Both the position numbers and the translations under genes were made by a program. From positions 1 through 32,005 of the forward strand of contig CAIMLG010000007.1 of NCBI GenBank assembly GCA_903842235.1: DNA of 32,005 nucleotides. The letters run 5' to 3'. Every line of letters begins with the position of its first letter. The first letter of the stretch is position 1. The notes under the pieces are model-generated. The model was not told where the DNA came from, ran no database searches, and saw nothing but the letters and a program-made list of their open reading frames with translations. Shown in pieces: positions 14,167-31,862 of the stretch. This DNA comes from an uncultured Verrucomicrobia subdivision 3 bacterium (GTDB lineage Bacteria > Verrucomicrobiota > Verrucomicrobiia > Limisphaerales > UBA11358).

Positions 14167-15603
14167 ATGTTGCAACAATACCAAGTCAACGGCGGTTTCG
14201 ATGAAATGCTGGATCTGGAATCCGGCGTGCGGAGTCATTACCGGAAATTCCAAAAATTGTTTGAAGAACTTAACCCGGAGGAGTTGGAGGCCAAGCGGCA
14301 GGCGGTGGATATGGCCTTTTTGCGGCAGGGGGTCACCTTCAACGTGTATGGCGATGTGCAGGGGGCGGAGAAGATATTCCCGTTTGATTTACTGCCGCGC
14401 ATCATTCCGGCCAGGGAATGGGAGTTTTTGGAGCGCGGGCTGGCGCAACGCATCACGGCGTTAAATCTTTTTCTGCACGACATTTATCACGAGCAGAAGA
14501 TCTTGAAAGATGGCGTGGTGCCGGAATTTTATGTGTTGTCGGCCCGGCATTTTCGGCGCGAGTTTGTGAACTTTAATGTGCCAAAGGATATTTATATCCA
14601 CATCTGTGGCACGGACTTGATCCGTGATGGCCAGGGCAATTATTTGGTGCTGGAAGATAACGGCCGGTGTCCGTCCGGGGTAAGCTATGTGCTGGAAAAT
14701 CGGCGAGCTATGAAGCGGGCGTTTCCAAGTATGTTTGAAGGCATCGGGGTGCACCCGGTGGAAAACTATGCGCAGGAGTTGCTCAAGTCGCTGAAATATA
14801 TCGCGCCCGCCGGCGTGGCGGATCCCATTGTAGTCGTCTTGACCCCAGGTGCTTATAACAGTGCGTATTTTGAGCACACCTATCTGGCTCGCCAGATGGG
14901 CATTGAAATTGTTGAGGGCCGGGATTTGTTTGTAAAAGATTCACGGGTGTTCATGCGCACCACCAAGGGGCCGCAGCCAGTGCATGTGATTTACCGCCGG
15001 ATTGATGATGATTTCATTGATCCGACCGTGTTTCGGCGGGACTCCATGCTGGGGGTGCCGGGGCTGATTAATGCTTATCGGGCGGGCAACGTGTCGCTCG
15101 CCAACTCCATCGGCACCGGCATTGCCGATGACAAGGTGATGTATTACTTCGTGCCGCGCATGATCAAATACTACCTCGATCAGGAACCGATTCTGCCGAA
15201 CGTGCCGACATATCTTGCCAGCGAGGAGCAGGACATGAAATACATCATGGAACATCTGCCGGAACTGGTCATAAAAGCGGCCAATGAATCGGGTGGCTAC
15301 GGCATGTTGATGGGGCCCAAGGCGTCGAAGGAAGAAATTGAAAAATTCCGACAGCTCATCATTGCCGAACCGCGCAATTACATTGCGCAACCCATGATCA
15401 ATCTTTCGCAGCACCCGACATATTGTGACGGCGATTTCGATGGGCGGCATGTGGATTTGCGCCCGTTCATCCTGTCGGGCGCGCGCGTGAGCATCATTCC
15501 CGGCGGCCTGACGCGGGTGGCGTTGCGCAAAGGTTCGCTGGTCGTCAATTCCTCGCAAGGGGGGGGCAGCAAGGACACCTGGGTGCTTTATGGAGATGAA
15601 TAA
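14167..15603 (+). CDS. Circularly permuted ATP-grasp protein (DUF404/DUF407 type)
   Basis: A 478-residue cytoplasmic protein, normal length for the family. It starts [19 protein letters not shown], matching the usual family N-terminus, so ATG 14167 was chosen over the earlier in-frame ATGs at 13945, 14038 and 14053. Intact ATP-grasp elements are visible: the metal-binding E163-D164-N165 in [20 protein letters not shown], a [14 protein letters not shown] block, [12 protein letters not shown], the lysine K370 with glycine-rich loop S375-G376-G377-Y-G379, HVDLRPFIL, and the C-terminal signature [13 protein letters not shown]. The fold catalyses ATP-dependent amide or peptide bond formation. The family is predicted to ligate amino acids or a peptide tag, but its true substrate is not known. 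It is the first gene of set 1, 91 bases before the alpha-E gene. Confidence 0.9.
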
Positions 15604-15694
15604 CCTCCAACTCTTAATATCCAACATCGAACAACCCATGACTGAAATTACAATCATCCGCCCCGATGGATGTTTGGTGTTTCTCTTTTAAATT

Positions 15695-16732
15695 ATGTTA
15701 TCCCGTGTTGCCAACTCTCTCTACTGGATGGCCCGTTACATTGAGCGCGCCGAAAATATCGCGCGCATCGTGGACGTAAATCTGCAGCTCCTGCTGGACA
15801 TTCGTAACCTCGACGAACAGCGGCTCATTGCCTACTGGCAGCCGATCGTGCAGGCCGCCGGCGATGAGGAGTCGTTCTTCAAAATACATCCCCACGCGAC
15901 GGGCGCGGCGGTCACGGAATTTATGGTTTTCGAGAAAACCAATCCCAATTCGCTGGTGCAATCCATCTGTTCCGCCCGCGAAAACGCCCGCATGGTGCGC
16001 GATCAGATCACGCTGGAACTCTGGGAGGAATTGAACCGGTTGTATTTGTTTGTCCGTTCCCCGCAGGCGCGCGAGGTCTGGAAGCGTGGTGCCAGCGAGT
16101 TTTTTCAGGAGATCAAGGCCAGTTCGCTCCACATCATCGGCATTATCAACGCCACGCTCATTCACAATGAAGGCTGGTGGTTCATTCAAGCCGGGCAGTT
16201 TTTGGAGCGGGCGGACAAGACCACGCGCATCTTGGACGTGCGCTACCAAAGCCTGCCGGAACGGGGCGTGCCGGAGCGCATCAGCTCCGATGAGACGCTG
16301 GAATGGTCCGCCGTATTGCGCTCGTGCAGCGCGTGGGACGCTTACAAGTCGCTCTACGCCGCCGATGTGCATCCGCGCCGGGTGGCGGAATTTCTCCTGT
16401 TGAGCTACCGCTTTCCGCGGTCCGTCCGGTTTTGCGTGAACGAGTTGAACCGGGCTCTGCGGCTCATCTCCGGCGTGCCTGAAGGCCGGTTTACCAACGA
16501 CGCGGAAAAGCTTACCGGTCGTTTTCTTGCCGAACTTCAATTCAGCACCGTGGACGAAATATTTGATGTCGGCCTGCATAGTTATCTCGACGAGGCACAA
16601 ATGAAACTGAACAACATTGGGGCCGAACTGTTCCGCGCCTACATTTTTCAGCCTTTTGAGAATCCCGACGAAGTCCATCTGGTGCAGCAGGAGGAGCAAC
16701 AACAGCAGAAGCAAAGTTTGGTCAGCAACTAA
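15695..16732 (+). CDS. Alpha-E domain protein (DUF403)
   Basis: A 345-residue all-helical protein starting MLSRVANSLYWMARYIERAE, the signature of the alpha-E family, followed by NIARIVDVNLQLLLD. Further family blocks are SICSARENARMVRDQI, LWEELNRLY, GWWFIQAGQFLERADKTTRI and a conserved SYRFPRSVRFCVNELN. Alpha-E proteins nearly always accompany the circularly permuted ATP-grasp, either as neighbours or fused to it, and are thought to form part of the same complex. No catalytic residues are assigned. The C-terminal tail is glutamine-rich (QQEEQQQQKQ) and probably disordered. The 67 bases to the next gene and the same direction suggest one operon. ATG start with no evident Shine-Dalgarno sequence. 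Confidence 0.93.
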   Translation: MLSRVANSLYWMARYIERAENIARIVDVNLQLLLDIRNLDEQRLIAYWQPIVQAAGDEESFFKIHPHATGAAVTEFMVFEKTNPNSLVQSICSARENARMVRDQITLELWEELNRLYLFVRSPQAREVWKRGASEFFQEIKASSLHIIGIINATLIHNEGWWFIQAGQFLERADKTTRILDVRYQSLPERGVPERISSDETLEWSAVLRSCSAWDAYKSLYAADVHPRRVAEFLLLSYRFPRSVRFCVNELNRALRLISGVPEGRFTNDAEKLTGRFLAELQFSTVDEIFDVGLHSYLDEAQMKLNNIGAELFRAYIFQPFENPDEVHLVQQEEQQQQKQSLVSN

Positions 16733-16799
16733 TGCCAGTTGTATTTTTGCAGCGCAGGGGATTTTGCCCGTGCGTGATTCATAATTTTACCTACTATTC

Positions 16800-19700
16800 A
16801 TGTCTATCCACGTCGCGCTTCACCACAAGACGCATTACCAATACGACCGGTTGGTCACGCTTGGGCCGCAGGTTATCCGGCTTCGGCCCGCCCCGCATTC
16901 CCGCACGCGGATTTTGAGCTACTCGCTCAAAGTCAGACCGGCAAAGCATTACATCAACTGGCAGCAGGATCCGCAATCGAACTACGCCGCGCGGCTCGTC
17001 TTTGAGGAGCCCACTCGGGAGTTTTGCGTCGAGGTGGACCTGGTCGCCGAGATGGCGGTGCTCAACCCGTTCGACTTTTTTCTGGAACCCGGCGCCCAGA
17101 AGTTTCCGTTTGGATATGATCCGGCGCTCGACACTGAGCTCGCCCCCTTCCAGCGCAAATGCTGGCTGACCGCCAATTTTTCGAAATATTTGACGGACCT
17201 CCGCCAGGACTTGATCGGCGAAGTCAAGCGGCGCACCAAACAGCAGCGGCTGGAAATGCCCGACAGCAAAAAGCAGCCGACGAATGATTTTATCGTCGCC
17301 ATCAATCAGCGCCTCTGGAAAGACATCAAGTACACGATTCGACTCGAACCCGGCGTGCAGACGCCGGAGGAAACCCTCGCGAAAATGAGCGGTTCTTGTC
17401 GCGATTCCGCGTGGCTGCTGGTGCAACTACTGCGGCATTTTGGCCTCGCTGCCCGGTTTGTTAGTGGCTATTTGATCCAAATCAAGGCCGACGTAAAATC
17501 GCTCAAGGGCCCGAGTGGCGCCGAAAACGATTTCACCGATTTGCATGCATGGACGGAGGTTTATCTGCCCGGCGCCGGTTGGATTGGGCTGGATCCGACT
17601 TCTGGTTTGCTGGCGGGCGAAGGTCACATTCCGCTGGCCTGCACGCCCGATCCTTCCAGCGCTGCGCCCATTTCCGGCGGGGTGGACGAATGCGAAACCG
17701 AGTTCGAGTTCGATATGACGGTGAAACGCGTCTATGAATCGCCCCGCGTCACCAAGCCCTACTCAGAGGAGCAATGGACGGACATTGAGAAACTGGGTCA
17801 TGCGATTGATGTGGACTTGAAGAAACACGATGTGCGGCTGACGATGGGCGGCGAACCGACGTTTGTTTCCGTGGATGATCCCGACGGGCCGGAATGGAAT
17901 TTCACCGCAATGTCGCTCCCGAAGCGTATTTTATCCGGCCAGCTCATCAAGCGGTTGCGGGATAAATTTGCCCCCGGCGCGCTGCTGCATTACGGCCAGG
18001 GCAAATGGTATCCCGGCGAACCGCTGCCGCGTTATGCGCTGGGAGCTTATTGGCGTAAGGATGGCGTGCCGATTTGGAAGGAGGATTCGCTCATTGCCGA
18101 CGAATCAAAAAATTACGGCCACGGTGCCAAGGAAGCCAAGGAGCTCGCCACGCGGCTGGCTAAAACGATTGGCGTGGATCCGAAGCATCTGCTTCCCTCT
18201 TACGAGGACGCGTTTTATTACACTTGGAAGGAACGGCGTTTTCCCTCGAACGTCACGCCGGAGAAATCCAATCTCAAAGACCAGCTGGAACGGGATCGCA
18301 TTGCGCGGATTTTTCAGCAGGGACTCGGCTCGGTTGTCGGCTACACGCTGCCAATCAAGCGCGCCCCCTATCGCCAGCAGCTTGGCTGGGTGTCCGGTTC
18401 CTTGTTTCTGCGCGATGATGAAACGCTTTGGCTCATCCCCGGTGATTCGGCAATGGGCCTGCGCTTGCCGCTCGATTCCGTGCCGTGGGTGGCGGAAAAC
18501 GATTTTCCGTGGTTGCGCCAGCAAGATCCGTCGCAGCCGGTTTTGCCCGGGCTGCCCAAAGAATTTCCATATCAGCAACAAATCGTAGGTCGGCGTCCCG
18601 CGCCGTTGGCGGCCGGCTGCGGTCCTGGCCAGCGTGCTCAACAGCTTGAGGATCCCAACCGCCGGCCTGCCCCCGGCGAAAGCGCCCCGTGGATCATTCG
18701 TACGGCGCTCTGCGTCGAGCCGCGCGCCGGCCGCTTGCACGTGTTCATGCCGCCGGTGGAGCGGACGGAGGATTATCTGGATCTCATCGCGGGGATTGAA
18801 ACCACCGCCACGGAAACGGGTTTGCCCGTCGTCATCGAAGGCGAAACGCCGCCGCGCGATCCGCGTATCAACAAGCTTGGCGTGACGCCCGACCCCGGCG
18901 TGATCGAGGTGAATCTGCACCCGAGCAAATCGTGGGATGAACTGGTCGAGCGCACGACGACGCTTTACGAAGAGGCGCGCCAGATTCGGCTGGGCACGGA
19001 AAAATTCATGCTGGATGGTCGGCACACCGGCACGGGGGGCGGCAACCACATCATTCTTGGCGGTGAGACGCCGCAGGATTCGCCCGTGCTGCGGCGGCCG
19101 GATTTGCTGCGCTCGCTGCTGGCGTATTGGCAGAATCATCCGTCCTTGAGCTGGTTGTTCAGCGGTTTATTTGTTGGGCCGACCAGCCAGGCACCGCGCA
19201 TTGACGAGGCCCGGAACGATTCGCTTTATGAACTTGAAGTCGCCTTCAAAGAGATGGGCCGGCAGCTCGGCCAGTCTGGCCAGACCCCGCCGTGGCTGGT
19301 GGACCGCCTGTTTCGCAACCTGCTGATTGATTCCAGCGGCAACCCGCATCGCGCCGAGTTTTCAATTGATAAACTGTTTGCGCCCGAAAGTAGCACTGGC
19401 CGGCTCGGGTTGGTCGAGATGCGCGCCTTTGAAATGCCGCCGGATGCCCGCATGAGTCTCGCTCAACATCTCTTGCTGCGCGGGCTGGTCTCAAAGTTCT
19501 GGCAGGAGCCCTACCAAAACCGACTGGTGCGCTGGGGAACGGACCTTCACGATCGCTGGATGCTGCCGCATTTTTGTGCAACCGATTTCAAGGATGTCAT
19601 CAACGATTTGCGCGACGCGGGTTATCCGTTCCAAGCCGAATGGTTTGCGCCGCACTTTGAATTCCGTTTTCCGCGCCTTGGCGACTTGGAGCAACGGGAC

Positions 19701-20207
19701 TTGCAAATCGAACTCCGCACCGCGCTGGAACCGTGGCATGTGCTCGGCGAAGAGCCCGGCGGCGGCGGCCCGGTGCGCTATGTGGACAGCTCGCTGGAAC
19801 GGCTGCAAGTCAAGGCGCGCGGCCTCATCGGCGACCGCTTTGCCATCACCTGCAACGGCCATCGCGTGCCGCTGCATCCGACTGGCACAGCCGGCGAAGG
19901 CGTGGCGGGCGTGCGCTATCGCGCGTGGCAGCCGCCGGTCTGTTTGCAGCCCACGATTCCGGCCCACGCTCCGCTGCGGTTCGATCTTTACGACACGTGG
20001 AACCAGCGTTCGTTGGGCGGCTGCACGTATCATGTCGCGCATCCTGGCGGTCGGAATTCGGAAACGTTCCCGGTCAACAGCTACGAAGCCGAGTCGCGGC
20101 GGCTCGCCCGGTTTTTCCGGCACGGTCATGCGCCGGGGAAAATGACCATTCCGGCGCCGGTGGAGAATGCGGATTTTCCGTTCACCTTGGATTTGCGGTA
20201 TGTCTGA
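16800..20207 (+). CDS. Transglutaminase-like protease domain fused to DUF2126 (GS-like ligase-type) domain
   Basis: A 1135-residue protein. Residues 1-290 are a bacterial transglutaminase-like module with an N-terminal beta domain (HVALHHKTHYQYDRLVTLGP) and a papain-like core. Its triad is C200 (MSGSCRDSAW), H249 (DLHAWTEV) and D265 (GLDPTSG). Residues about 330-1130 are DUF2126, with LTMGGEPTFVSVDD, HYGQGKWYPGEPLPRYAL, GVIEVNLHPSKSWDEL, DGRHTGTGGGNHI and FEMPPDARMSL. This region has been proposed to be a circularly permuted glutamine-synthetase-like carboxylate-amine ligase; the EVN and GTGGGNH blocks fit that. So one chain may join a peptide-cleaving or amide-exchanging enzyme to a ligase. 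A Pro/Gly-rich linker lies near 598-640. No signal peptide. Third gene of set 1. Confidence 0.9.
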   Translation: MSIHVALHHKTHYQYDRLVTLGPQVIRLRPAPHSRTRILSYSLKVRPAKHYINWQQDPQSNYAARLVFEEPTREFCVEVDLVAEMAVLNPFDFFLEPGAQKFPFGYDPALDTELAPFQRKCWLTANFSKYLTDLRQDLIGEVKRRTKQQRLEMPDSKKQPTNDFIVAINQRLWKDIKYTIRLEPGVQTPEETLAKMSGSCRDSAWLLVQLLRHFGLAARFVSGYLIQIKADVKSLKGPSGAENDFTDLHAWTEVYLPGAGWIGLDPTSGLLAGEGHIPLACTPDPSSAAPISGGVDECETEFEFDMTVKRVYESPRVTKPYSEEQWTDIEKLGHAIDVDLKKHDVRLTMGGEPTFVSVDDPDGPEWNFTAMSLPKRILSGQLIKRLRDKFAPGALLHYGQGKWYPGEPLPRYALGAYWRKDGVPIWKEDSLIADESKNYGHGAKEAKELATRLAKTIGVDPKHLLPSYEDAFYYTWKERRFPSNVTPEKSNLKDQLERDRIARIFQQGLGSVVGYTLPIKRAPYRQQLGWVSGSLFLRDDETLWLIPGDSAMGLRLPLDSVPWVAENDFPWLRQQDPSQPVLPGLPKEFPYQQQIVGRRPAPLAAGCGPGQRAQQLEDPNRRPAPGESAPWIIRTALCVEPRAGRLHVFMPPVERTEDYLDLIAGIETTATETGLPVVIEGETPPRDPRINKLGVTPDPGVIEVNLHPSKSWDELVERTTTLYEEARQIRLGTEKFMLDGRHTGTGGGNHIILGGETPQDSPVLRRPDLLRSLLAYWQNHPSLSWLFSGLFVGPTSQAPRIDEARNDSLYELEVAFKEMGRQLGQSGQTPPWLVDRLFRNLLIDSSGNPHRAEFSIDKLFAPESSTGRLGLVEMRAFEMPPDARMSLAQHLLLRGLVSKFWQEPYQNRLVRWGTDLHDRWMLPHFCATDFKDVINDLRDAGYPFQAEWFAPHFEFRFPRLGDLEQRDLQIELRTALEPWHVLGEEPGGGGPVRYVDSSLERLQVKARGLIGDRFAITCNGHRVPLHPTGTAGEGVAGVRYRAWQPPVCLQPTIPAHAPLRFDLYDTWNQRSLGGCTYHVAHPGGRNSETFPVNSYEAESRRLARFFRHGHAPGKMTIPAPVENADFPFTLDLRYV

Positions 20208-20262
20208 CGGGGCTGCCAGCGGTAAAAACGCCTTTGCCTTTCAACTTGTGATCCCCGCCCAT

Positions 20263-21627
20263 TCAATCCAATCCGCCGCGCACCAGCCGGACGAAATTTG
20301 TGATGCGGACGGCATCGCCTTGTGGGCCGTGGCCATACGGATAATTGGCCGGGTTGCCAGTCTTCATGTCACTGCGTTGCGCGCCCGCTCCGTGGACGTC
20401 CAACCAAGCTCCATTCAGGTAGCCCATCGCCCGGCCGAAACAGATATAAACGGCTGGCGGCGTCGGCGATCCATCGAGATGCGTGCTGTTTGCCCAGAAA
20501 AATGGATAATCCATCTGGCCCGCCTCGTTGGTGATGGCGGTGCAGTTGAAAAAGTTGGGATTGATCGCTGCCGTGCCTGTCGTGGTCGGCGAGCGGGTGT
20601 AGTCCACAATGCTCTGGAGTTCCTTGGCGGTCGGCATCCGCCAGTCGCTGTAACCGCAATAATTCGTGGCATTGCCCGTCTGCACCCAGGTCAGCGCGTC
20701 GGCCCAGTTCATGCCCGTGCCGCTGTCATTTTTCGACCACATGAGGGCGGTGGCCAGATCGGTGATGGTGCCGTCGCCATTATTGACGAAGTTGTTCGTG
20801 CCATAGCTGGGATTGCCTCGGACATAGCGGACATACAACGTCTGCCCAATGGTGCCGCCACTGCCGGGTTGGTAGCGCGGGTAGCCCTTGATCCGTCCGT
20901 CGGCAAAATTGACGCCAAACACCGTGGCATCGCCGTTCATGGTGGTGCTGACATAGGCCGTGGCCGACCAGTCTTGGCAATCAATGACCCGTTCCGAACC
21001 CACGCCGCTGCCGTAGGCGAAACCAAAAAAATTCGTGTCAATGAACGGTGTGTAGCCCGCCGTGCTGGTCATCGTCGTGCCATTAACGCCGGAAAATTGG
21101 ATCAGCGAGTAAAGTTCCTTGATGGTGGGCATCCGCCAGTCCGGGTAGCCGCCGGTGCGATTGGTGGCTGCGCCTGCCACCGCGTTGGCCCACGTTATTT
21201 TGGTGCCCCGGGCCTGCGCCCACATCAATCCGGTATTCAAGTCCGTGATCGTGCCGTCGCCATTGTTCGTATGCGCCGGGACGGGATTCGCAAACTGCGC
21301 GTCCTGACCGTAGAACGGCTGGCCCGCCGCAGGCGCATCTATCCGAGCGTTGTTGTTGTAACAGTTGGTTTCGCCCGTGTCCACGACGGTGAAGGTTGGC
21401 CCGCGCAACCGGAAATATTCGACGGAGTTGGTGGCCGGCAGAGTCAGCGAAGCCACCGCCGTTGGCAGTTCCGTCCAGAGTTCGTTTGCTGCGCCAGCCG
21501 CTTGCAGGATACCTGGTCCCTGCCAGGAAACCGCCACGGCGTTGTTGGTGCGTGTGATGTGGAGCAATGCGGCTGCCGCCGATCCGGCGACCAGCATCAA
21601 AAAGGTTATGTGGGGAATGGTCTTCAT
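20263..21627 (-). CDS. Secreted protein with two DUF1566 (Lcl C-terminal-like) domains
   Basis: A 454-residue exported protein. A signal peptide (MKTIPHITFLMLVAGSAAAA) is followed by a small beta domain ending VEYFRLRG (about residues 25-125), then two DUF1566 units. Unit 1 (about 155-270) contains DGTITDLNTGLMWAQ and YPDWRMPTIKELYSLI. Unit 2 (about 285-454) contains DGTITDLATALMWSK, YSDWRMPTAKELQSIV and ends NFVRLVRGG. DUF1566 is related to the formylglycine-generating-enzyme/Lcl fold and is found in surface-attached or collagen-like proteins. No enzymatic role is established. It lies head-on inside the ATP-grasp/transglutaminase locus, converging on the DUF2126 gene and diverging from the fused ATP-grasp gene. 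ATG start. Confidence 0.85.
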   Translation of the reverse strand: MKTIPHITFLMLVAGSAAAALLHITRTNNAVAVSWQGPGILQAAGAANELWTELPTAVASLTLPATNSVEYFRLRGPTFTVVDTGETNCYNNNARIDAPAAGQPFYGQDAQFANPVPAHTNNGDGTITDLNTGLMWAQARGTKITWANAVAGAATNRTGGYPDWRMPTIKELYSLIQFSGVNGTTMTSTAGYTPFIDTNFFGFAYGSGVGSERVIDCQDWSATAYVSTTMNGDATVFGVNFADGRIKGYPRYQPGSGGTIGQTLYVRYVRGNPSYGTNNFVNNGDGTITDLATALMWSKNDSGTGMNWADALTWVQTGNATNYCGYSDWRMPTAKELQSIVDYTRSPTTTGTAAINPNFFNCTAITNEAGQMDYPFFWANSTHLDGSPTPPAVYICFGRAMGYLNGAWLDVHGAGAQRSDMKTGNPANYPYGHGPQGDAVRITNFVRLVRGGLD

Positions 21628-21689
21628 GGGGACACGCTACAATAAACCACCTTAATGAAACGTTAAGAACATGAATTTTGCCAGCGCCG

Positions 21690-24305
21690 ATGTTAAACAG
21701 TAAAATAGCGTCAATGGATTGTGCCGTGACCAAAAACGAATCTAAAACGTCTGCCGCTCTGCTGGACGATTACCAGCGGACGGCATCGCAATTTGACGAA
21801 TGTCATACGGAGACGGGTGCGTTGCGTCCGCATTATGCCCGGTTTGTAAATTCATTGGCGCAAGTGGGGCCCAGTGAATTAAGTCGCCGCTGGGATAATG
21901 CGCGGCGCTTGGTGCAAGAGCAGGGGATTACTTACAATGTCTATGGCGATGTGCGCGGCATGGAGCGGCCGTGGGAACTGGATCCGATGCCGTTTCTCAT
22001 TGCGGCCGACGAATGGTGGACCATTGAGGCCGGACTCATCCAGCGGGCCACGCTGATCAACCGTGTTTTGGCCGACTGTTATGGCCCGCAAGAATTAATC
22101 CGGTCCGGCTGGCTGCCGCCGGGACTGGTATTTGCCCAGCCCGAATTTCAGCGGCCTTGCCACGGCCTCAAGCCGAAGCAGGGAAAATTTCTCGTATTTT
22201 ACGCCGCTGATATGGCGCGTTCCCCCGACGGCCGCTGGTGGGTCACTTCCGACCGCACGCAAATTCCCACCGGCGCTGGCTATGCTTTGGCTAACCGCTT
22301 GGTCACTTCGCGTATTTTGCCCGAGGCCTTCCGCGATTGTCAGGTGCAGCGCGTCGCCGGTTTTTTTCAGGAAGTGCAAAAGACCCTGGCGCAGCTCGCT
22401 CCCCTGCCTTCGGAAAATCCGCGTGTCGTGCTCCTGACGCCGGGCCCCTACAACGAGACCTATTTTGAGCAGGCATATCTGGCCCGTTATCTGGGCTACC
22501 AGATGGTGGAAGGTCAGGATTTAACGGTGCGGGATGACCGGGTGTTTTTGAAAACGCTCGCCGGCTTGGAGCCGGTGGACGTGATTTTACGCCGCTTGGA
22601 TGACGAGTTTTGCGATCCGCTCGAACTTCGCAATGATTCCATTCTCGGTGTGCCCGGACTCGTCGAGGTGGCGCGGGCTGGTAATATTTTTATCGCCAAT
22701 CTGCCAGGCAGCAGTCTGTTGCAAAGCCCGGCGTTTATGGCCTTTTTACCGGGGTTATGCCGGCATGTGCTGGGCGAGGAATTACAGATACCCTCTGCCG
22801 CCACCTGGTGGTGCGGCCAGAAATCCGCCGAGGATTACGTTCTGGAAAATCTCGACGGACTGTATGTAAAGCCCGCCTTCAACCAGCGGCTGATGAGTAA
22901 GGTGGTTGAAAAGGACCTGTCGCGCGCCGAGCGGGCCGCCCTGGTGCGTCGCATCAAATTCCAGCCGCATCAGTTCGTCGCGCAGGAATGGGTGAAGCTT
23001 TCCACGGCTCCGGCGCTGGATGGCAACCGGTTTATGCCGCGCCCAGTGACCTTGCGGGTCTATCTCGTGGCTACCGAAAATGGGTATGCCGTGATGCCCG
23101 GCGGACTTTCCCGCGTGGCCCCCCGCGCCGATACCAGTTTGGTTTCCATGCAGCGCGGTGGCTCGAGCAAGGACACCTGGGTGTTGAGCGATGAGCCGGT
23201 GGAGGTGTTTACTCTGCTTTCGGCGGGCAGCCAAAGCGTTGAGTTGCGCCGCGTGGGCAATAACCTGCCGTCGCGCCTCGCGGATAATTTTTTCTGGCTG
23301 GGCCGTTATGTGGAGCGGGCCGACGCCGCTGCGCGGCTGTTGCGGAGCACGTTGCGCCGTTTCACCCCGGAACGCGGCGGCAGCCCCCTGCCGCATTTGG
23401 CCCCGTTGCTGGAAACGTTGGAAGCGCAGGGCCAAATGGCGCATTCACTCCGCTCCAGCCTAAGCCAGAGCCAGAGCCAGGGCGCCGGGCAGCGGCCGTC
23501 CATGTCCTGGAAAACCCCCGAGGCGCTCGAGGCGGAATTGCTCGCCGCCATTTTTGCCCCGGATCAGGATGGCAGCCTGCGGCACAGTATCGGCCATCTG
23601 CAGCGCCTTGCCATGTTTGTGCGCGACCGCACGTCGAACGATCTCTGGCGCGCCGCTAATCAGTTGGATGATTTGTTGACGGATGCCCTGCCGGAAAAAT
23701 TCTTGCTGGCCGCCGACGCGTTGGGAGTGCTGAATCAAACGCTGCTGGGGCTGGCCTCATTCAATGGTCTGGCACGGGAGAATATGACCCGCGCGCAGGG
23801 CTGGCGGTTTATTGACATGGGCGTGCGCCTCGAACGCGCCTTTGGCCTCTGCCGGTTTCTGAATTGCGCCTTGCCCTCGCCGGAAGCCGATAATCCCAGC
23901 CTGCTCGAAGCCGTGCTCGAAGTGGCCGACAGCACGCTGACCTACCGGTCGCGCTATAATCTGCTGCCCAATATCGCGGCCGTTTACGATCTGGTGTTGT
24001 TGGATGAAAAAAATCCCCGTTCCCTGATCTTCCAGATCCGCCAGTTGGAAAAACATTTTCAACGGCTGCCGCAGGAACATCTGTCGGTGACACTGCAGCA
24101 GAAAATCCTGCGCGATTGCAGCTCCCGGCTGAATTTGTTGGAACCCCGTGAACTGTTGGAACGCCATCAAGCCTGGGCGAGTGGCGACACGGGACGCGTC
24201 ATTGCTGACATGCTCCGCGACCTGCCGCGTTTGTCTGACGCGCTCGCCGTCAGCTATTTCGCCCACTCCGAAATTTCGCGGACGGGGGGGGGCTACCAGC
24301 CATGA
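21690..24305 (+). CDS. Fused circularly permuted ATP-grasp and alpha-E protein
   Basis: An 871-residue protein joining, in order, an ATP-grasp-like half (about 1-515; NVYGDVRGMERPWELDPMPF, VLLTPGPYNETYFEQAYLAR, SSKDTWVLSDEPVEVF) and an alpha-E half (about 525-865; RLADNFFWLGRYVERADAAA, GWRFIDMGVRLERAFG). It is a paralogue of the two separate genes at 14167 and 15695. Two active-site elements are altered: the metal-ligand EDN is S187-D188-R189, and the glycine-rich loop after the lysine reads K394-PAFNQRL instead of an SGGYG loop. A Ser/Gln linker (SLSQSQSQGAGQ) sits in the alpha-E half. The start is uncertain: TTG 21678, ATG 21690 or ATG 21714. Its stop overlaps the next start by ATGA. Confidence 0.9.
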   Translation: MLNSKIASMDCAVTKNESKTSAALLDDYQRTASQFDECHTETGALRPHYARFVNSLAQVGPSELSRRWDNARRLVQEQGITYNVYGDVRGMERPWELDPMPFLIAADEWWTIEAGLIQRATLINRVLADCYGPQELIRSGWLPPGLVFAQPEFQRPCHGLKPKQGKFLVFYAADMARSPDGRWWVTSDRTQIPTGAGYALANRLVTSRILPEAFRDCQVQRVAGFFQEVQKTLAQLAPLPSENPRVVLLTPGPYNETYFEQAYLARYLGYQMVEGQDLTVRDDRVFLKTLAGLEPVDVILRRLDDEFCDPLELRNDSILGVPGLVEVARAGNIFIANLPGSSLLQSPAFMAFLPGLCRHVLGEELQIPSAATWWCGQKSAEDYVLENLDGLYVKPAFNQRLMSKVVEKDLSRAERAALVRRIKFQPHQFVAQEWVKLSTAPALDGNRFMPRPVTLRVYLVATENGYAVMPGGLSRVAPRADTSLVSMQRGGSSKDTWVLSDEPVEVFTLLSAGSQSVELRRVGNNLPSRLADNFFWLGRYVERADAAARLLRSTLRRFTPERGGSPLPHLAPLLETLEAQGQMAHSLRSSLSQSQSQGAGQRPSMSWKTPEALEAELLAAIFAPDQDGSLRHSIGHLQRLAMFVRDRTSNDLWRAANQLDDLLTDALPEKFLLAADALGVLNQTLLGLASFNGLARENMTRAQGWRFIDMGVRLERAFGLCRFLNCALPSPEADNPSLLEAVLEVADSTLTYRSRYNLLPNIAAVYDLVLLDEKNPRSLIFQIRQLEKHFQRLPQEHLSVTLQQKILRDCSSRLNLLEPRELLERHQAWASGDTGRVIADMLRDLPRLSDALAVSYFAHSEISRTGGGYQP

Positions 24306-25177
24306 CCTACCACCTCATCCATCGCACCATTTACGAATACGCTTCGCCCGTCACCGTGTCGCATCATGCGGCACGGGTGCAGCCGCGCGAATTGCCGTAT
24401 CAACAGGTCGACCGATTCTCGCTGCGCGTGGATCCGTTGCCGTCGGTCTCCCAACCCCGCATTGATTTCTTTGGCAACCATGTCTGCGGCTTCAGCATTC
24501 AGGCCATTCATCAAAGGCTGGAAATCACCGCCACCAGCCGCGTCCGGGTGGCCGCCACTCCGCCGCCCGCCTCGGCGCTCTCGCCGGATTGGGAAAGTGT
24601 GGTGGCATTATTTTCTGATCCGGTTTCGCCGGCGGTGGTCGAGCCCTATCAATTTGTTTTTGATTCCCCGCTGTTGCGCCGTTCGCCGGAACTGGCCGAT
24701 TATGCCCGGCAAAGTTTTGTGCCGGCCTCGCCGCTGTTGCTGGCGGTGACCGACTTGAACAAGCGGCTTTTTTCCGATTTCAAATTTGATCCCGTAGCCA
24801 CCACCGTGGCCACCCCGCTGGAGGAAGTTTTGGAGAAACGCCGCGGCGTCTGTCAGGACTTTGCCCATTTGGCCGTTGCCAGTTTGCGTTCGCTCGGCTT
24901 GCCCGCTCGCTACGTCAGCGGCTATCTGCGCACGCATCCGCCCGCCGGCCAACCCCGGCTCGTGGGTGCCGACGCCAGCCATGCGTGGTTCTCCGTGTTT
25001 TGCCCCGGCTTTGGCTGGGTGGACTTTGATCCCACGAACAATTTGCTCCCCGCCGAAGAACACCTGACCGTTGCGTTTGGCCGCGATTTTTCGGACGTGA
25101 GTCCGGTCTCGGGCGTGATCACCGGCGGTGGGGCGCACGCGGTGAACGTTTCCGTGGATGTAGAACCTCTTTCATGA
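24302..25177 (+). CDS. Transglutaminase-like cysteine protease domain protein
   Basis: A 291-residue protein with an N-terminal bacterial transglutaminase beta domain (MTYHLIHRTIYEYASPVTVS) and a papain-like core. The catalytic triad is complete: C184 in RRGVCQDFAHLAV, H227 in ASHAWFSVF, and D243 in VDFDPTNN. The GLPARYVSGYL strand is typical. No signal peptide or membrane helix, so it is cytoplasmic. Bacterial members act mostly as peptidases or amide-cleaving enzymes rather than crosslinkers. The ATG overlaps the preceding stop by ATGA, and the gene's own stop overlaps the next start the same way, showing tight translational coupling with the fused ATP-grasp-alpha-E protein. Confidence 0.93.
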   Translation: MTYHLIHRTIYEYASPVTVSHHAARVQPRELPYQQVDRFSLRVDPLPSVSQPRIDFFGNHVCGFSIQAIHQRLEITATSRVRVAATPPPASALSPDWESVVALFSDPVSPAVVEPYQFVFDSPLLRRSPELADYARQSFVPASPLLLAVTDLNKRLFSDFKFDPVATTVATPLEEVLEKRRGVCQDFAHLAVASLRSLGLPARYVSGYLRTHPPAGQPRLVGADASHAWFSVFCPGFGWVDFDPTNNLLPAEEHLTVAFGRDFSDVSPVSGVITGGGAHAVNVSVDVEPLS

Positions 25178-26004
25178 AATACGATATTTACCACCGCACC
25201 CGTTACACCTACGCCACGCCGGTGCGTGACAGTTTTAATGATATTCGCCTCCAGCCGATGCCCATTCCCGAGCAAACGGTGGAATCGTTTCTGCTGAAGG
25301 TCTTGCCCTCATCGCGCCTGACCCACTTCAAGGATTTCTATTCCAACTGGATTCATCACTTTGAAATAGTCGAGCCACACAGCTATCTGATGATTGAAGC
25401 CACTTCGCGGGTCATCACCCATCCGCCGGCGCCGCTGCCGGAAGCTAAACTTTGTTCCTTCGAGCAGATGCTGGCCGCGCCCAATATCGAACGTTGTTTT
25501 GATTATCTGGGCGAAAGCCGGTTTGTCGAACTCTCGCCCGAAGCTTGGAAACTGGCGCTTGATGCCACCGCTGGAGTGGAAGACGCGTGGTTGGCGGCGT
25601 TGGTCCTGATGCGCTTTACCCACGGTTTTCTGAAATACGAATCGGCCTCCACGCACGTTCATACGCACATGAGCGAGTTGCTGGTGGATCGGCGCGGAGT
25701 TTGCCAAGACTTCGCCCATTTGCTGCTGGGCCTGTGTCGTTCATTGAAAATTCCTGCCCGCTATATCAGCGGTTATCTCGCCACCGAAGCTGCCAGTGCC
25801 ACCCATGCGTGGATTGAAATCTTCGTGCCCGGCTACGGCTGGCGCGGACTCGACCCCACCCACAATTGCCAGATCGGCGAAACCTACATCAAGATCGGCA
25901 ACGGTCGTGATTACGCCGACGTCCCGCCCATCAGCGGCAACTATCGGGGCACGCGCGACCATAAAATGGAAGTGGAAGTGAAAATTATTCCATTGCCAGC
26001 CTAG
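25174..26004 (+). CDS. Second transglutaminase-like cysteine protease domain protein
   Basis: A 276-residue paralogue of the preceding gene, starting MKYDIYHRTRYTYATPVRDS. It has an N-terminal beta domain and a papain-like core with C177 in DRRGVCQDFAHLLLG, H211 in ATHAWIEIF and D227 in GLDPTHN. The product ends with a family-typical ISGNYRGTRDHKMEVEVKI. It shares the coupled ATGA junction with the upstream transglutaminase, making a three-gene unit (fused ATP-grasp-alpha-E, transglutaminase, transglutaminase). It is cytoplasmic by sequence. The divergence between the two proteins suggests different substrates or a heterodimer, which is inference. It converges on the GH2 gene 59 bases downstream. 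Confidence 0.93.
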   Translation: MKYDIYHRTRYTYATPVRDSFNDIRLQPMPIPEQTVESFLLKVLPSSRLTHFKDFYSNWIHHFEIVEPHSYLMIEATSRVITHPPAPLPEAKLCSFEQMLAAPNIERCFDYLGESRFVELSPEAWKLALDATAGVEDAWLAALVLMRFTHGFLKYESASTHVHTHMSELLVDRRGVCQDFAHLLLGLCRSLKIPARYISGYLATEAASATHAWIEIFVPGYGWRGLDPTHNCQIGETYIKIGNGRDYADVPPISGNYRGTRDHKMEVEVKIIPLPA

Positions 26005-26063: not shown

Positions 26064-28994
26064 TCAGGGTTTCTGAGTCGGCGGTCCGTTCAGCAATAAA
26101 TCGTGTGCCTTCGGTTTATCCTCTCCCGTTGCTTGTCCGGTGGCCGCCGTATCCAGTCGCACGCCCAGATTGGCGAACAGGGCGTGCCAAAAGCGGGCGT
26201 GAACCGGCGACGTTGGAATGCAATCCAGCGAGGAAACCAGCACTTGACCGCCGGCTTGTGGCTGGGCCACCAGTGCCGCGCCGCTGGGCTTGTTCAGGTG
26301 CTCAGACAACACCACGGCGGCGCACTTGGCATTTTCCGGCGCGTTGTTGAACAGGGACCAATCGGTGTTGGCCGCTTGCAGTAAAATCGTTCCCCGCTGA
26401 ACGAACGGGCCGGCTAAGCCGCACTTCAGGATCTGTTTGTCCGTGGCGTCCTCCGCAAAATAGAGGTTGGTCAGGCTCAAGCGGGCCGGCCAAGCGTGTG
26501 GTGTCCCGGGAACCAGCGAAGTGGCGTGCCGGGGAGTCAGGCTCACGGGCACCGGTAGCAATTGATTCACGGCCGCCGACCCTTCGCCCCCTTGACGGAA
26601 CATAACCCAGACGGTGCCATGTTCGGCCAAGGTTGCGGCGGCAGCCTGTTTGGCCTGGGGCAGCCGGGCATCGGTCAGCGTGGCGGCATCCACCAGCAAC
26701 AATTTCGCGGGCTGACTGCTGGCATCGCCGAATGGCACGCCCAGTGCCGTGAGCCGGGCAAAGAGTTCGCCCTCGCGCGCCCCGGCAAAGGCCACCCGAT
26801 CAATCGTCGCCGGGACTTCGGGGACCGCCGGTTTTGAAACTGCCGCTTGGTGCTCCCAAGCGCACGGTTGCGGGCCGCCGGGGGCGAGGGCGGCTCGCTG
26901 GGCTTCAAACATCGGCAGCGGACGGTATAGCGGCAACGCCGGGTCCCAGCCGGGATTGAAGGTGCAGACGTAAGGCGGAAGACGCTCCGGTTGCACGCCG
27001 GGCTTGCCTTCTTCAAACGGCTTGAGCCAGATGCCGTCATTCGTATTGGGCAGCCGGCTGAAGTCGTGATAGCCGAGATTCAGAGGTTCAAGGCCAAACC
27101 ACGCGGTCTCGGCCGGCGAAAAGAAGGCCAGCCGGGGCTGGGCGAGATGGACGATGTTGTCATACACATCCATCGCCAGCGCTTCGTTGCGGCCCAGATA
27201 ACTTTCGTAAGCCCGCTCGCCATTGAAAACCGCGAGCTGCTCGGGCCGCGCGTAGTAAGAGCCGCCGGATTCGCCGATCATCAGCGGTTTGGTCGGCTCC
27301 TTGGGCAGCCAGTCCGGATGCGGCCGGCCCAGGCCGAAATGCTTGTTCCAGACCGGCATGGTGCCGCGCACATCTTCGTCGCCATCGCAGGAAAACCAGT
27401 TGCGCGTGTCGTCCAGCGGGCGCCCGCGCGCGCCCAAGTCCGCGAGCTGCGCATACCATTTATCTTTTTGTTCCTGGGTGATCGCGTCTTCGTAGATGAA
27501 GCTGGCGAACAGCTCGTTGCCCCAGCTCCAGCCGAAGACGCTGGGGTGATTCCGGTCGCGCCGGATCAGGTTATCGTAATGTTCGGCATAGCGATTCCAG
27601 GCGGCGGGCGCTTCGAAATTGAGCTGGAGCGAACTGCCGAATAGCGCGGTCTCGTCCAGCACCAGCAGGCCCATTTCATCGGCCAGATCCAGGTAATGGC
27701 GCGGATGCGGCTGGGCATGGGGCCGCACCGCATTGCCGTGCAGATCCTTGATCATTTGATACCACGCCCAGACATAGCGGCGGGAATTGACGAACGTGCC
27801 GAAGGGATGCAGCAGGTCGCCAAACAACTGCACCTTCTGCCCGTTCAGCAATAAATCCCGGCCGTTAATCTGGCATTGCCGCCAGCCAAAGCGCGTGTAA
27901 CTGCGATCCAGCGTTTCGCCGCCCGCCCGCACGGTCAGCACCAGGCCGTTGAGGTTGGGAGTTTCCGGCGACCACAATTTCAAGCGGCCTTTCACGGCTT
28001 CGCGCAGGGTGAGGGTTTTGGTTTTGCCCGGCGGGAGCGTGACGCGCTGCGCGGGCAGGCTCAGCCCCGGCGCAGCGAGCCGCCATTTGGGTTCCGGCGC
28101 GTCGAGAAGATTGGTGCCGGTTAGGTTGATCCACGGTTGCACGCTGCCGCCCACCTCAAGGCTCTGCTCGTGTGTGGAATCATTGCGCACCGTCACCTCG
28201 GCTTCGAGCAAATCGCGATCCACAAAGGGCTTCACAAACACGTCCGCCACCCGCACCGGCGGCAGGCCCAGCAAAAACACGTCCTGCCAGAGGCCCGCCA
28301 GATTGTCGGTGTTGGACCCGGGTGGGTAGGGGGTCCGCATGTGCTTGTATTTGGTGCTGCGCTGGTCAAATAGCCGCAGGCTGCGCACGCCCACGAGCAA
28401 TTCATTTTCGCCGCCGCGTTGGACCAGGTCGGTGATATCCAGTTCCCAGGGCAGGAAGCGGTCGCAATAGCTGCCCGCCATTTTGCCATTGATGAACACC
28501 TGCGCGTCGCCGCCCACCGCCTCGAAATGCAGCACGAGCCGCCGGTTGCCCCAGGTTTCCGGCACGCGAAACGGGCGCTTGAGCCAGCCCATTTCCACCG
28601 CGTCCCAGCGTGCCGGGAAGCTGGGATAATACACCGCGCTGGGCCAATACGGATGCGGCGTGCCTTCGCCCGCATTGCGCGCCGCGCCCCACGTGTTCAC
28701 GTTCCAGAAGGAGGGAATCTTGATGGGCGTGGGGTCCCACTGATCGGCGACCGGCGGTGGCAATTCCGGCGGCACCCCGGTGTCGCGTTTCCAGTCGCGG
28801 GGCAGCGACATGGGTTGAAACTGCCAGCGCCCATTCAGGCAAAGCTCCTGCCGCCACGGCTGCTCCGGCGGCTTCACCCAGCCTTCGCTGGGCGCAAAAT
28901 CCCGGGTGAATTCCACCCGTTCCGCCGCCAGGCTGGTCTGTCCCGCAAAACCGGCGCAGATCAGGGCCAAGAGTTTTGTCGGGAAGGTCAGCAT
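26064..28994 (-). CDS. Secreted glycoside hydrolase family 2 enzyme
   Basis: A 976-residue exported enzyme with a Sec signal (MLTFPTKLLALICAGFAGQT, cleaved near SLAA). In order: a GH2 sugar-binding jelly roll (about 50-245; LHFEAVGGDAQVFINGKMAG), an immunoglobulin-like domain (about 250-360), and a TIM barrel (about 365-660) with NAVRPHAQPHP and GLLVLDETA. The acid/base is E494 in WSWGNELF and the nucleophile E575 in MIGESGG. A C-terminal region of about 300 residues has no recognised motif. GH2 covers beta-galactosidases, beta-mannosidases and beta-glucuronidases; the exact activity is not clear. It follows the GH76 gene by 13 bases, so the two are probably one transcript. ATG start, no evident Shine-Dalgarno sequence. 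Confidence 0.88.
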   Translation of the reverse strand: MLTFPTKLLALICAGFAGQTSLAAERVEFTRDFAPSEGWVKPPEQPWRQELCLNGRWQFQPMSLPRDWKRDTGVPPELPPPVADQWDPTPIKIPSFWNVNTWGAARNAGEGTPHPYWPSAVYYPSFPARWDAVEMGWLKRPFRVPETWGNRRLVLHFEAVGGDAQVFINGKMAGSYCDRFLPWELDITDLVQRGGENELLVGVRSLRLFDQRSTKYKHMRTPYPPGSNTDNLAGLWQDVFLLGLPPVRVADVFVKPFVDRDLLEAEVTVRNDSTHEQSLEVGGSVQPWINLTGTNLLDAPEPKWRLAAPGLSLPAQRVTLPPGKTKTLTLREAVKGRLKLWSPETPNLNGLVLTVRAGGETLDRSYTRFGWRQCQINGRDLLLNGQKVQLFGDLLHPFGTFVNSRRYVWAWYQMIKDLHGNAVRPHAQPHPRHYLDLADEMGLLVLDETALFGSSLQLNFEAPAAWNRYAEHYDNLIRRDRNHPSVFGWSWGNELFASFIYEDAITQEQKDKWYAQLADLGARGRPLDDTRNWFSCDGDEDVRGTMPVWNKHFGLGRPHPDWLPKEPTKPLMIGESGGSYYARPEQLAVFNGERAYESYLGRNEALAMDVYDNIVHLAQPRLAFFSPAETAWFGLEPLNLGYHDFSRLPNTNDGIWLKPFEEGKPGVQPERLPPYVCTFNPGWDPALPLYRPLPMFEAQRAALAPGGPQPCAWEHQAAVSKPAVPEVPATIDRVAFAGAREGELFARLTALGVPFGDASSQPAKLLLVDAATLTDARLPQAKQAAAATLAEHGTVWVMFRQGGEGSAAVNQLLPVPVSLTPRHATSLVPGTPHAWPARLSLTNLYFAEDATDKQILKCGLAGPFVQRGTILLQAANTDWSLFNNAPENAKCAAVVLSEHLNKPSGAALVAQPQAGGQVLVSSLDCIPTSPVHARFWHALFANLGVRLDTAATGQATGEDKPKAHDLLLNGPPTQKP

Positions 28995-29007
28995 GGAGAA
29001 TCGGAAG

Positions 29008-30138
29008 TTAAGGCGCTTGGCTCGGCGGCACCACTTGCAAGATCACCACCGCGCTGCTGCACCCCCAGGAATTGCGCACGCCGGCGGGCGTGGATTCCGG
29101 CCAGCGGCACCAGGCTAAATTATCGCTGGCGCGGCGGGCCTGCCAGGCGGCATCGGCGTTCTTTTGCAACCACGGCAAAAACATCGCCTGCTCGCCACGG
29201 TCTTTCATGAAGCGCGCAATCCACCGCACGCCGATGCCGTTGAACCCCGCCCCATCCCCCACGTCGCCGTAGGCCGGCAGCATTCCCTCGTGACTGAGAT
29301 TATTCATCGTATAGGCGGCCGCCCGGCGCGCCTCATTGGTGTAGCCCAGAAAATTGGCCGCGCCGACAAACGTCCCCTGATTGTAAGTCAGCGCCATGCG
29401 ATTCACCCGGCCACTGCGGCTGATGGCGTCCGCGATCCGGCCTGTCTGGGGATCGAACAGCGTCGCGCGTTCCCAGAGAAACAAGTTGGTGGCGATGGTG
29501 AAATAGGTTTTGTCCCCCGTGGCCTGACCCAGCAGGTACGCGGCGATGGCCCCCGGGCCGTTCACGCAGGCGTTCTTGGACCGGTTATCCACCTTCCACC
29601 ACAAGCCCCCGCCGAGATTCGTGGAGCTGGCCCGCGCATAGCACAGGTCAAAATTGGTCTTGGCCACCGCGCGAAATTCCGGATTGCCCATGAGCAGATA
29701 ACCCCGGGCGCAGGCGATCACCATCCACATGATATCATCGTTGAACTCGTTCGTAGCCCACGTCGCGCCATGATCGGCCAGGAAACCGTGCACTAGGTGG
29801 GTGAGCATCCCCTGCGTTTGCGGATTTTGGGTGCGCTCATAATGATCCAGCACCATCTCCAACTGCTCCGCGCGCATCCAGAAGGAAATCTTGCCGCCCT
29901 CCGTGTTTTCCTTGAACCAACCCTGGCCGTTGGTGGCCTGATAAAAAGCCTGGGCATGGGCCTGAAACAGGACGTCCGCATCCGCCGCCGTGAAGGCTCT
30001 CGCCGTTCCCGCGGTCCCGCCAAACGCGAGCATCAGGCACCCGCAAAGCAGGAGGTGAACACCGTGGAACCCATCGCTCCGTTGCAATGTGCGCGACGGG
30101 CGGACGGGTTCGAGAGGGGCGACCAGGGGAGAATTCAT
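29008..30138 (-). CDS. Secreted GH76-like glycosidase (putative alpha-1,6-mannanase)
   Basis: A 376-residue exported (alpha/alpha)6-barrel protein. The signal region is HLLLCGCLMLAFGGTAGTAR (about 27-46). The conserved adjacent aspartates of GH76, D134-D135 in EFNDDIMWMVIACA, are present. Other GH76-like blocks are GGLWWKVDNRSKNACVNGPG, ALTYNQGTFVGAANFLGY and a GIGVRWIARF helix. GH76 enzymes are endo-acting alpha-1,6-mannanases cutting fungal or bacterial mannans. The activity of this one is inferred. I moved the start from an upstream in-frame ATG (30288) to ATG 30138, because GGGGGG precedes it at ribosome-binding distance and the extra 50 residues carry no conserved features. Presumed operon with GH2. 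Confidence 0.82.
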   Translation of the reverse strand: MNSPLVAPLEPVRPSRTLQRSDGFHGVHLLLCGCLMLAFGGTAGTARAFTAADADVLFQAHAQAFYQATNGQGWFKENTEGGKISFWMRAEQLEMVLDHYERTQNPQTQGMLTHLVHGFLADHGATWATNEFNDDIMWMVIACARGYLLMGNPEFRAVAKTNFDLCYARASSTNLGGGLWWKVDNRSKNACVNGPGAIAAYLLGQATGDKTYFTIATNLFLWERATLFDPQTGRIADAISRSGRVNRMALTYNQGTFVGAANFLGYTNEARRAAAYTMNNLSHEGMLPAYGDVGDGAGFNGIGVRWIARFMKDRGEQAMFLPWLQKNADAAWQARRASDNLAWCRWPESTPAGVRNSWGCSSAVVILQVVPPSQAP

Positions 30139-30717
30139 GTCCCCCCAGCATGGCGAAGTCCTCTTGAAATTCAAGGCCGCGCTGCGGTCGCTCCGCAATA
30201 TTATATTTGCCGCCAGATAACCCTCGTCCTCAAACCCCAGTGCCGGAGCCGCTGGAGATAACTCGACACGCCAACCAATAGCACCCATGGTGCCAAAGAA
30301 GAATAAACGCTGGACTGGCTTCTCGGCTTACGAAACAAGTGAAAGCTAGCCTACATCAAACTGAACCGCCAAACAGCTTGCCCACCTCGTGCTGCTGTCC
30401 AGGTCAACCAAGGATGCGTTTGGAGCTTATTTCACTCTGCGCATTCAATTCGCTTTCGGTCATGGCGGCGACCCTCCCAGCTATGTTGGGGCTCAATGTT
30501 CCTGCCCAAGCGCCTCATTACAAGAACAGATGTCGCCCATCTCTTTGCAAGGGAAATCACCCGCGCCGCCACATTATCACACCCCCCGGCCCAAGTCGCT
30601 CCACCCGAAAATTATCCCCTTCGGATTTTCGTCCGGTCCGGGCAGCAGGGTAGCGCAGGCGACTCGCCTGCCATTTTCGGCGACCCGCCGAAAAATCCCC
30701 CCTCTGCAGCTTGCCGG
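30139..30717. other. Non-coding stretch between the GH76 and integrase genes
   Basis: 579 bases with no supportable gene. Short frames on the + strand have low-complexity or composition-driven translations and no ribosome binding sites. The left part should hold the promoter for the leftward GH76-GH2 pair; no clear -10/-35 is seen. The right part (30655-30696) holds two adjacent palindromes, annotated separately. CAGCTTGCCG is repeated at 30707-30716 and 30719-30728, across the integrase stop. Confidence 0.5.
30655..30696. repeat. Pair of adjacent perfect palindromes, REP-like
   Basis: Palindrome 1 is GCAGGCGA-C-TCGCCTGC (30655-30671). Palindrome 2 is TTTTCGGCG-ACC-CGCCGAAAA (30674-30694), flanked by an extra A and AT. 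Two close stem-loops in an intergenic position are the usual form of bacterial REP/REPIN elements. They also lie just past the integrase stop and could act as its transcription terminator, since the leftward transcript would read the second palindrome first. Dispersal through the genome is inferred, not seen. Confidence 0.55.
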
Positions 30718-31746: not shown

Positions 31747-31765
31747 GGGGTGCAGCCTACAAAAG

Positions 31766-31862
31766 AAGCCAACCGTGTAGTTACGGTGTAACGGGCGTGT
31801 TGGCTTGGGTTGGCTTGATTTGGCCACCGTCCCAACTTTAGTGCCCGTTTTGGTGCCCGTTT
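31766..31862. repeat. Short direct and inverted repeats upstream of the integrase
   Basis: AAGCCAACC (31766-31774) is an exact inverted copy of GGTTGGCTT (31808-31816). GTTGGCTTG is also directly repeated (31799-31807 and 31809-31817). GTGCCCGTTT is repeated at 31841-31850 and 31853-31862. Clusters of 8-10 base repeats upstream of an integrase start often serve as arm-type binding sites or as its operator. That role is inference. Confidence 0.45.

Follow-up and report, generated by a model that had tools for sequence, protein, structure and literature searches.

Gene content of the locus

The window analyzed here, a whole contig of 32,005 nucleotides (CAIMLG010000007.1) from an uncultured Verrucomicrobia subdivision 3 bacterium, carries a cluster of six forward-strand genes for circularly permuted ATP-grasp, alpha-E and transglutaminase-like (TG) proteins. 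The assembly comprises 4.32 Mb in 354 contigs and is 88.65% complete. The cluster was read, at a little under an even chance, as one amide-ligase system of two partnered modules, with module B nested inside module A, and not as two complete systems.

The six genes of the preliminary description are real, with all six proteins scoring far over the Pfam cut-offs. The first, AG1, encodes the separate circularly permuted ATP-grasp of module A (14167..15603, +; CP_ATPgrasp_2, 549.8 bits) and is followed by AE1, the separate alpha-E of the same module (15695..16732, +; Alpha-E, 317.8 bits). Module B starts with TGd-DUF2126 (16800..20207, +), in which a TG-like domain is joined to a putative glutamine synthetase (GS)-like amidoligase (Bact_transglu_N, Transglut_core and DUF2126, the last with 1305.7 bits). 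It continues with AG2-AE2 (21690..24305, +), an apparently degenerate circularly permuted ATP-grasp fused to an alpha-E (CP_ATPgrasp_2, 513 bits; Alpha-E, 219.8 bits). Two genes with Bact_transglu_N and Transglut_core matches close the cluster, TGb of module B (24302..25177, +) and TGc of the module A type (25174..26004, +). The ATGA couplings proposed for the fused gene and these two genes were borne out by the open reading frame (ORF) coordinates, in which the first four bases of TGb are also the last four of AG2-AE2, and TGc shares four bases with the end of TGb in the same way. The adjoining CP_ATPgrasp and Alpha-E matches supported the earlier assignment to the circularly permuted ATP-grasp / alpha-E / transglutaminase class known from comparative genomics. 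The picture of two complete sets side by side did not hold, since a minus-strand Lcl_C gene between them had been overlooked and AG2 lacks residues that are constant in AG1.

Within the assembly, incomplete as it is at 88.65%, all Alpha-E matches (2) and all Bact_transglu_N matches (3) fell inside the cluster. The best-scoring named relative of the DUF2126 protein was found in a Verrucomicrobia metagenome-assembled genome (L082), with 83% identity over residues 1-998. The AG1 frame is open from an ATG at 13945; 14167 was taken as the likelier start, because homology to PDB 3n6x begins 9 residues past it. This structure, titled 'Putative glutathionylspermidine synthase', was matched over most of its chain by both AG1 (E 3.4e-182) and AG2 (E 1.4e-87). 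For AG2-AE2, a TTG at 21678 is an alternative start whose frame is also open.

Gene order and the two modules

Gene order was compared in 80 named loci fetched via DUF2126. Of the 73 loci that left 1.5 kb or more of room for it, 63 had the fused gene on the same strand as DUF2126 and starting no more than 400 bp downstream; among the remaining 10, it was farther away in six and missing in four (L087, L124, L131, L139). In 64 of the 66 loci with enough sequence beyond the fused gene, a TG gene started at most 400 bp past it. Fifty loci had 9 kb or more of sequence on each side of DUF2126; AG1 or AE1 was found in 23 of them, and was sometimes divergent. Such a divergent arrangement was seen in G169 and G181, two genomes of the window's class, with AG1-AE1-TGc facing away from TGd-DUF2126 - AG2-AE2 - TGb. 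Clustering of 717 neighbor ORFs from the 80 loci gave just four families present in at least four non-Pseudomonas loci.

The near relatives were represented by 16 chosen regions from 15 genomes of the window's genus. The nested order AG1-AE1-[TGd-DUF2126]-[AG2-AE2]-TGb-TGc was present in 10 of these regions, compactly in six, with additional DNA separating AE1 from TGd in three, and starting at a contig end in one. The other six comprised one region without TGc, two with only module B and three with only module A. In further detail, AG1-AE1-TGc was present in the region examined of G416, AG1-AE1 with TGc 3.4 kb away in G414, and modules A and B lay on different contigs in G397. The six-gene nested order was also found in the named loci L085, L086 and L089.

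In a FastTree tree of the TG proteins, TGc was placed with TGs lying directly behind a separate alpha-E or another TG (8 rows, support 98), and TGb among TGs behind the fused gene (75 rows, support 98); long branches were flagged in this tree and its labels were imperfect, the TG-after-TG class requiring 8 changes. Based on comparative gene order together with this tree, the cluster is divided into module A (AG1-AE1-TGc) and module B (TGd/DUF2126 - AG2-AE2 - TGb). The recurrent linkage of two gene groups was thus seen again in named loci and near relatives, and the groups themselves were redrawn: in place of a split of three and three in map order, TG-DUF2126 is grouped with the fused gene, and the separate ATP-grasp and alpha-E are joined by the last TG.

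Age of the two ATP-grasps

A tree was built from 111 ATP-grasp domains, 40 of the separate and 71 of the fused form, and a single branch with SH-aLRT 100 divided the two forms; the method was a quick one, long branches were flagged, and 15 Pseudomonas loci were excluded beforehand. Verrucomicrobia, Planctomycetes and Proteobacteria were among the titles of the loci that supplied its rows. Because the rows came from several phyla, the split, as read from this tree, predates the window's lineage. A recent lineage-specific duplication was ruled out by this one branch across phyla, and with the recurring linkage there was nothing left of the idea that the two sets are recent copies lacking conserved association.

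Loss of putative catalytic residues in the fused ATP-grasp

Residues were numbered from 13945 for AG1 and from 21678 for AG2. AG1 has a putative Mg site formed by D224, E237 and N239 (14614-14661, +) and a GGYG loop at residues 450-453 (15292-15303, +). In AG2, S191 and R193 (22248-22256, +) occupy the positions of AG1 E237 and N239. D224, E237, N239 and GGYG were kept in 40/40 AG1 rows; three further rows sorted as AG1 by script were truncated fused copies and were dropped from this count. Among 86 AG2 rows, Asp 224 was kept in all 86 and the Glu in 6; the Asn was never present, with Arg in its place in 69, and no row had GGYG. R253, D359, R506 and D544 of AG1 were invariant in 86/86 AG2 rows, and therefore AG2 is not simply decaying.

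The near relatives gave the same result, LEDN together with GGYG being present in 13/13 AG1 and 0/13 AG2 sequences. Both segments were common to 3n6x and AG1 and were missing from AG2, which otherwise matched most of the 3n6x chain as AG1 did. A similar D-x(11-12)-E-x-N segment was found in seven homologues of glutathionylspermidine synthetase, with the Asn in 7/7 and the Glu in 6/7. The window's assembly had no match to PF03738 (GSP_synth), and Pfam gave CP_ATPgrasp families only. Since the Glu/Asn pair and the Gly loop are lost from AG2 though constant in AG1, AG2 is probably a pseudo-ligase acting as a helper instead of a second enzyme. The notion of two working ATP-grasp ligases was therefore given up, and the ligase candidates became AG1 and DUF2126, not AG1 and AG2.

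A different reading of the same alignment is that AG2 is a divergent live enzyme, in which a conserved [AS]-[DQ]-R-T-Q motif replaces the Glu/Asn pair and supports another reaction or another mode of nucleotide binding. The replacement motif is itself conserved (Arg 69/86, Thr 69/86, Gln 65/86), and many AG1 residues remain invariant. This was nevertheless considered unlikely, for AG2 has variable sequence with some gaps where AG1 has its GGYG loop, unlike a nucleotide-binding loop under selection, and Lys 444 of AG1 is kept in only 61/86 AG2 rows.

Co-occurrence of separate and fused forms

The distribution of the two alpha-E forms was determined in four genome samples that overlap slightly (the window's own genome and G215). 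In the window's phylum, 50 of 194 genomes had Alpha-E, including 42 with both forms, 7 with the separate form only and 1 with the fused form only; even in the lone fused-only genome, G054, a separate AG1 was present, together with an alpha-E fragment scoring 33 bits. DUF2126 was present in 35 of the 194, every one of them among the 50 with Alpha-E. Of 45 genomes chosen from the 80 DUF2126 loci, 44 had both alpha-E forms, the exception being the genome of L107; one fused copy in this sample lies in a frame of just 542 aa. In the phylum of G215 (L109, titled Planctomycetaceae), 24 of 149 genomes had matches, comprising 15 with both forms, 1 fused only, 6 separate only and 2 with weak partial hits as read by eye. 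Among 40 close relatives, 21 had matches, with both forms in 16, fused only in 2 and separate only in 3. No Alpha-E match was obtained in 8 of 24 other genus members, five of them at least 90% complete, and therefore the system is dispensable.

Across the four samples, the fused form was accompanied by a separate alpha-E in 42/43, 44/45, 15/16 and 16/18 genomes. Over the two phylum samples, 2 genomes were fused-only and 13 separate-only (binomial p 0.007); with the near relatives added, the numbers were 4 and 16 (binomial p 0.012). Both tests ignore kinship and the draft state of the assemblies. Module B was thus rarely seen without module A. As to whether both sets always co-occur, the answer was nearly always, and fused-only and separate-only genomes do exist.

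The exceptions of the second kind bear on whether the modules might be two independent pathways that travel together, each with its own product. The separate alpha-E occurred without the fused form in 7/50, 6/24 and 3/21 genomes, the presence of AG1 or AE1 in only 23 of the 50 well-flanked loci agrees with independence, and so do the different contigs of A and B in G397. The nearly constant company of a separate alpha-E wherever the fused form is found, and the nesting of B within A in the window's genus, speak against it, and two separate pathways appear improbable.

Alpha-E, TG and DUF2126 proteins

The structure model of AE1 was all-helical with a mean pLDDT of 92.9, and Foldseek returned no PDB chain at E <=0.001 among 186 matches (best E 0.51). 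Alpha-E was found to be an internal duplication of residues 1-152 and 153-345, with an ER motif in each half. The two halves were aligned by hhalign with a probability of 98.9 (residues 9-149 on 163-310), and comparison of the first alpha-E block with two other blocks reached a probability of at most 2.1. E17/R18 was invariant in 46/46 aligned alpha-E copies, separate and fused together, and E171/R172 was kept in 45/46.

The Cys-His-Asp triad is intact in all three TG cores of the window, as had been noted before, and was kept in 82/83 aligned TGb rows, 14/14 TGc rows and 75/75 TGd rows. The model of TG-DUF2126 had a mean pLDDT of 79.2, and it matched a TG-like structure with Foldseek E 1.1e-13. 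GS-likeness of DUF2126 was no more than suggestive on the structure model. The window's assembly also encodes an ordinary-looking glutamine synthetase of 355 aa, which is type II by sequence reading.

In 14 genomes (e.g. G078, G091, G128), DUF2126 was observed in another, shorter type, some 700 aa long and without the fused TG domain; in one of them the long type was present as well. Where this short form occurs at L078:13250-15376 (+) and L079:4919-7135 (-), the linked fused ATP-grasp-alpha-E scores better with AG1 than with AG2.

A proposed nested amide-ligase system

Gene content, nesting in near relatives, an old split of the ATP-grasps and the loss of AG2 residues amid other invariant ones are the observed part of the two-module reading. 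In the mechanism proposed for it, AG1 would activate a carboxylate as an acyl phosphate and make an amide bond, with alpha-E as its helical partner or substrate holder. AG2-AE2, a conserved pseudo-ligase, may pair with module A parts as a scaffold or regulator and would bring in DUF2126, the putative GS-like ligase, to form another amide bond. Trimming or transfer of the product could then fall to the TG-like Cys-His-Asp enzymes. A stronger form of this proposal holds that the fused family is an ancient conserved pseudo-ligase serving solely as the non-catalytic partner of an active pair, which, with the GS-like ligase DUF2126, would make up a two-step factory for amides, and that alpha-E is a new all-helical, duplicated, substrate-holding fold; this form we regard as doubtful.

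A make-and-remove cycle, with one ligase group adding a peptide tag to its target and all three TG-like cysteine enzymes serving to take the tag off again, accords with the co-encoding of ligase and cysteine-enzyme genes, with the three intact triads and with protein tagging being among the published proposals for the class (PMC6376114), and was judged very improbable, given that AG2 looks inactive, that no acceptor or substrate gene recurred beside the cluster in the neighbor clustering of the 80 loci, and that no tagged protein is reported in the available parts of the literature on the class.

Several observations weigh against the two-module reading. The assignment of E237 and N239 of AG1 as putative Mg ligands relies on a motif common to glutathionylspermidine synthetase homologues and on the residue roles ascribed to it; in the profile comparison of the AG1 class with glutathionylspermidine synthetase, the probability was 0.7 of 100, which is not significant. 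AG2 could have altered, not lost, its chemistry. The GS-likeness of DUF2126 met with a profile probability of 0.2 of 100, again not significant, and Foldseek gave E values of only 0.042-0.13 (prob 0.38-0.93) against glutamine synthetase chains in the 50 matches listed of 542. AG2 was absent from the four named loci with room given above (4/73), and the fused alpha-E stood alone in 4 genomes, against 16 for the reverse, the ratio being 2 to 3 in the near relatives considered by themselves. The remaining points came from related operons. According to the available part of the report on Yersinia, the proteasome-family protein Anbu formed no stable complex or specific interaction with the other proteins of its operon (PMC6376114). 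Expression of the gene set is described, in the part of that source at hand, as unchanged under several conditions (PMC5666114), and the Anbu gene PP_2685 of Pseudomonas putida as barely changed in two of three strains (PMC7801951, in part). No match to an Anbu gene (PF00227) was found in the window's assembly, which is 88.65% complete. Finally, a scan for sigma54-type sites, allowing <=2 mismatches to the consensus, gave 13 in the window with 13.0 expected by chance.

Possible role in nitrogen economy

The reports cited here were available in part, and what is taken from them refers to those parts. In P. putida, PP_2685 and PP_2688 were higher on nitrate than on ammonium (PMC8050072), and PP_2686-2688 were raised under nitrogen limitation (PMC7801951). 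The BCAM1233-1236 cluster of Burkholderia cenocepacia was reported as a common target of NtrC and sigma54 (PMC5491218), and in marine metagenomes these domains were associated with those of urea metabolism (PMC3597751). As relatives are induced under nitrogen limitation in Pseudomonas and Burkholderia, the analogy suggests a role in nitrogen economy, in which a peptide or amide compound may be made or recycled when nitrogen is short. Because sigma54-type sites were at chance level and no Anbu gene was found, this link is borrowed from other phyla.

Comparison with known systems

Circularly permuted ATP-grasp / alpha-E / transglutaminase systems were reportedly predicted by Iyer et al. in 2009. 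The window resembles this predicted class in its families and their adjacency, and differs in having two modules nested in one gene run. For the class, with the same families adjacent, a role in peptide synthesis or modification has been proposed (PMC6376114, PMC5666114, PMC3597751). The gene set was considered to hint at a peptide-synthesis system that is non-essential without stress (PMC5666114), and the ATP-grasp of the Yersinia Anbu operon released orthophosphate from ATP (PMC6376114). Our literature search, which did not extend to the 2009 class description, found no account of an inactive fused ATP-grasp or of nesting; the gene class is already known, and priority for either feature cannot be claimed.

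The genes of module A are like those of the Anbu operon (Anbu, transglutaminase, alpha-E and ATP-grasp, e.g. P. putida PP_2685-2688), whereas the window's assembly has no proteasome-family match and has module B in addition. The BCAM1233-1236 cluster likewise unites DUF404/DUF407, DUF403, TG-domain and large TG-domain proteins in one regulated cluster (PMC5491218), and its large protein is, we infer, a TG-DUF2126 fusion; it depends on NtrC and sigma54, in contrast to the chance-level sites of the window. In the Rlo and RimK-RimB loci of Pseudomonas, an ATP-grasp lies beside a peptidase and, in Rlo, also a TG-domain protein (PMC12239564). That TG is a membrane-bound protein without activity, and the protease belongs to the retropepsin type, unlike the three triad-intact TG-like proteins, alpha-E and DUF2126 of the window. 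On a Bacillus amyloliquefaciens plasmid (L195), a glutathionylspermidine-synthase-like ATP-grasp gene adjoins an annotated poly-gamma-glutamate hydrolase family gene.

The genes are found repeatedly, in loci with Verrucomicrobia, Planctomycetes and Proteobacteria titles, and the available parts of the literature on the class name no product. The revised view, with one active ligase, one probable pseudo-ligase and one possible GS-like ligase in nested modules, shifts the first assay target (AG1), the partner (AG2-AE2) and the deletions expected to share a phenotype, by which the 2009 prediction becomes open to direct laboratory testing.

Insertions at the DUF2126/AG2 junction and neighboring genes

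The Lcl_C (DUF1566-type) gene (20263..21627, -) encodes 454 aa with two PF07603 stretches (139.7 bits). As a search query its protein found no match in 116 other regions. The junction had no room for such a gene in any of the 13 near-relative regions with both DUF2126 and AG2, where the two frames (stop to stop) overlapped or were at most 124 bases apart. The Lcl_C gene is an insertion into the operon and stands outside the system. An OprB porin gene occupies the equivalent junction at L089:13507-15096 (-), and the DUF2126/AG2 junction seems to accept unrelated inserts. The ORF at 20167-21645 (+) was rejected as a gene, having no Pfam match and being an antisense shadow of the Lcl_C gene. A 6-phosphofructokinase-like ORF separates AE1 from the TG-DUF2126 gene in the nearest named relative (L082:2285-3703, +; translation read by eye).

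Sigma70-like sites numbered 5 in the window, with 5.8 expected. A homologue of Peptidase_Mx, a zinc-ribbon metallopeptidase, was observed near the cluster in 6 of 101 sources (L128, L132, L147, L152, L157, L160), the assignment being based on a family search with the L160 copy only. Downstream of the cluster, the window holds a GH2-like gene, a GH76 gene and then a phage-integrase-family gene (26064-31827, -).

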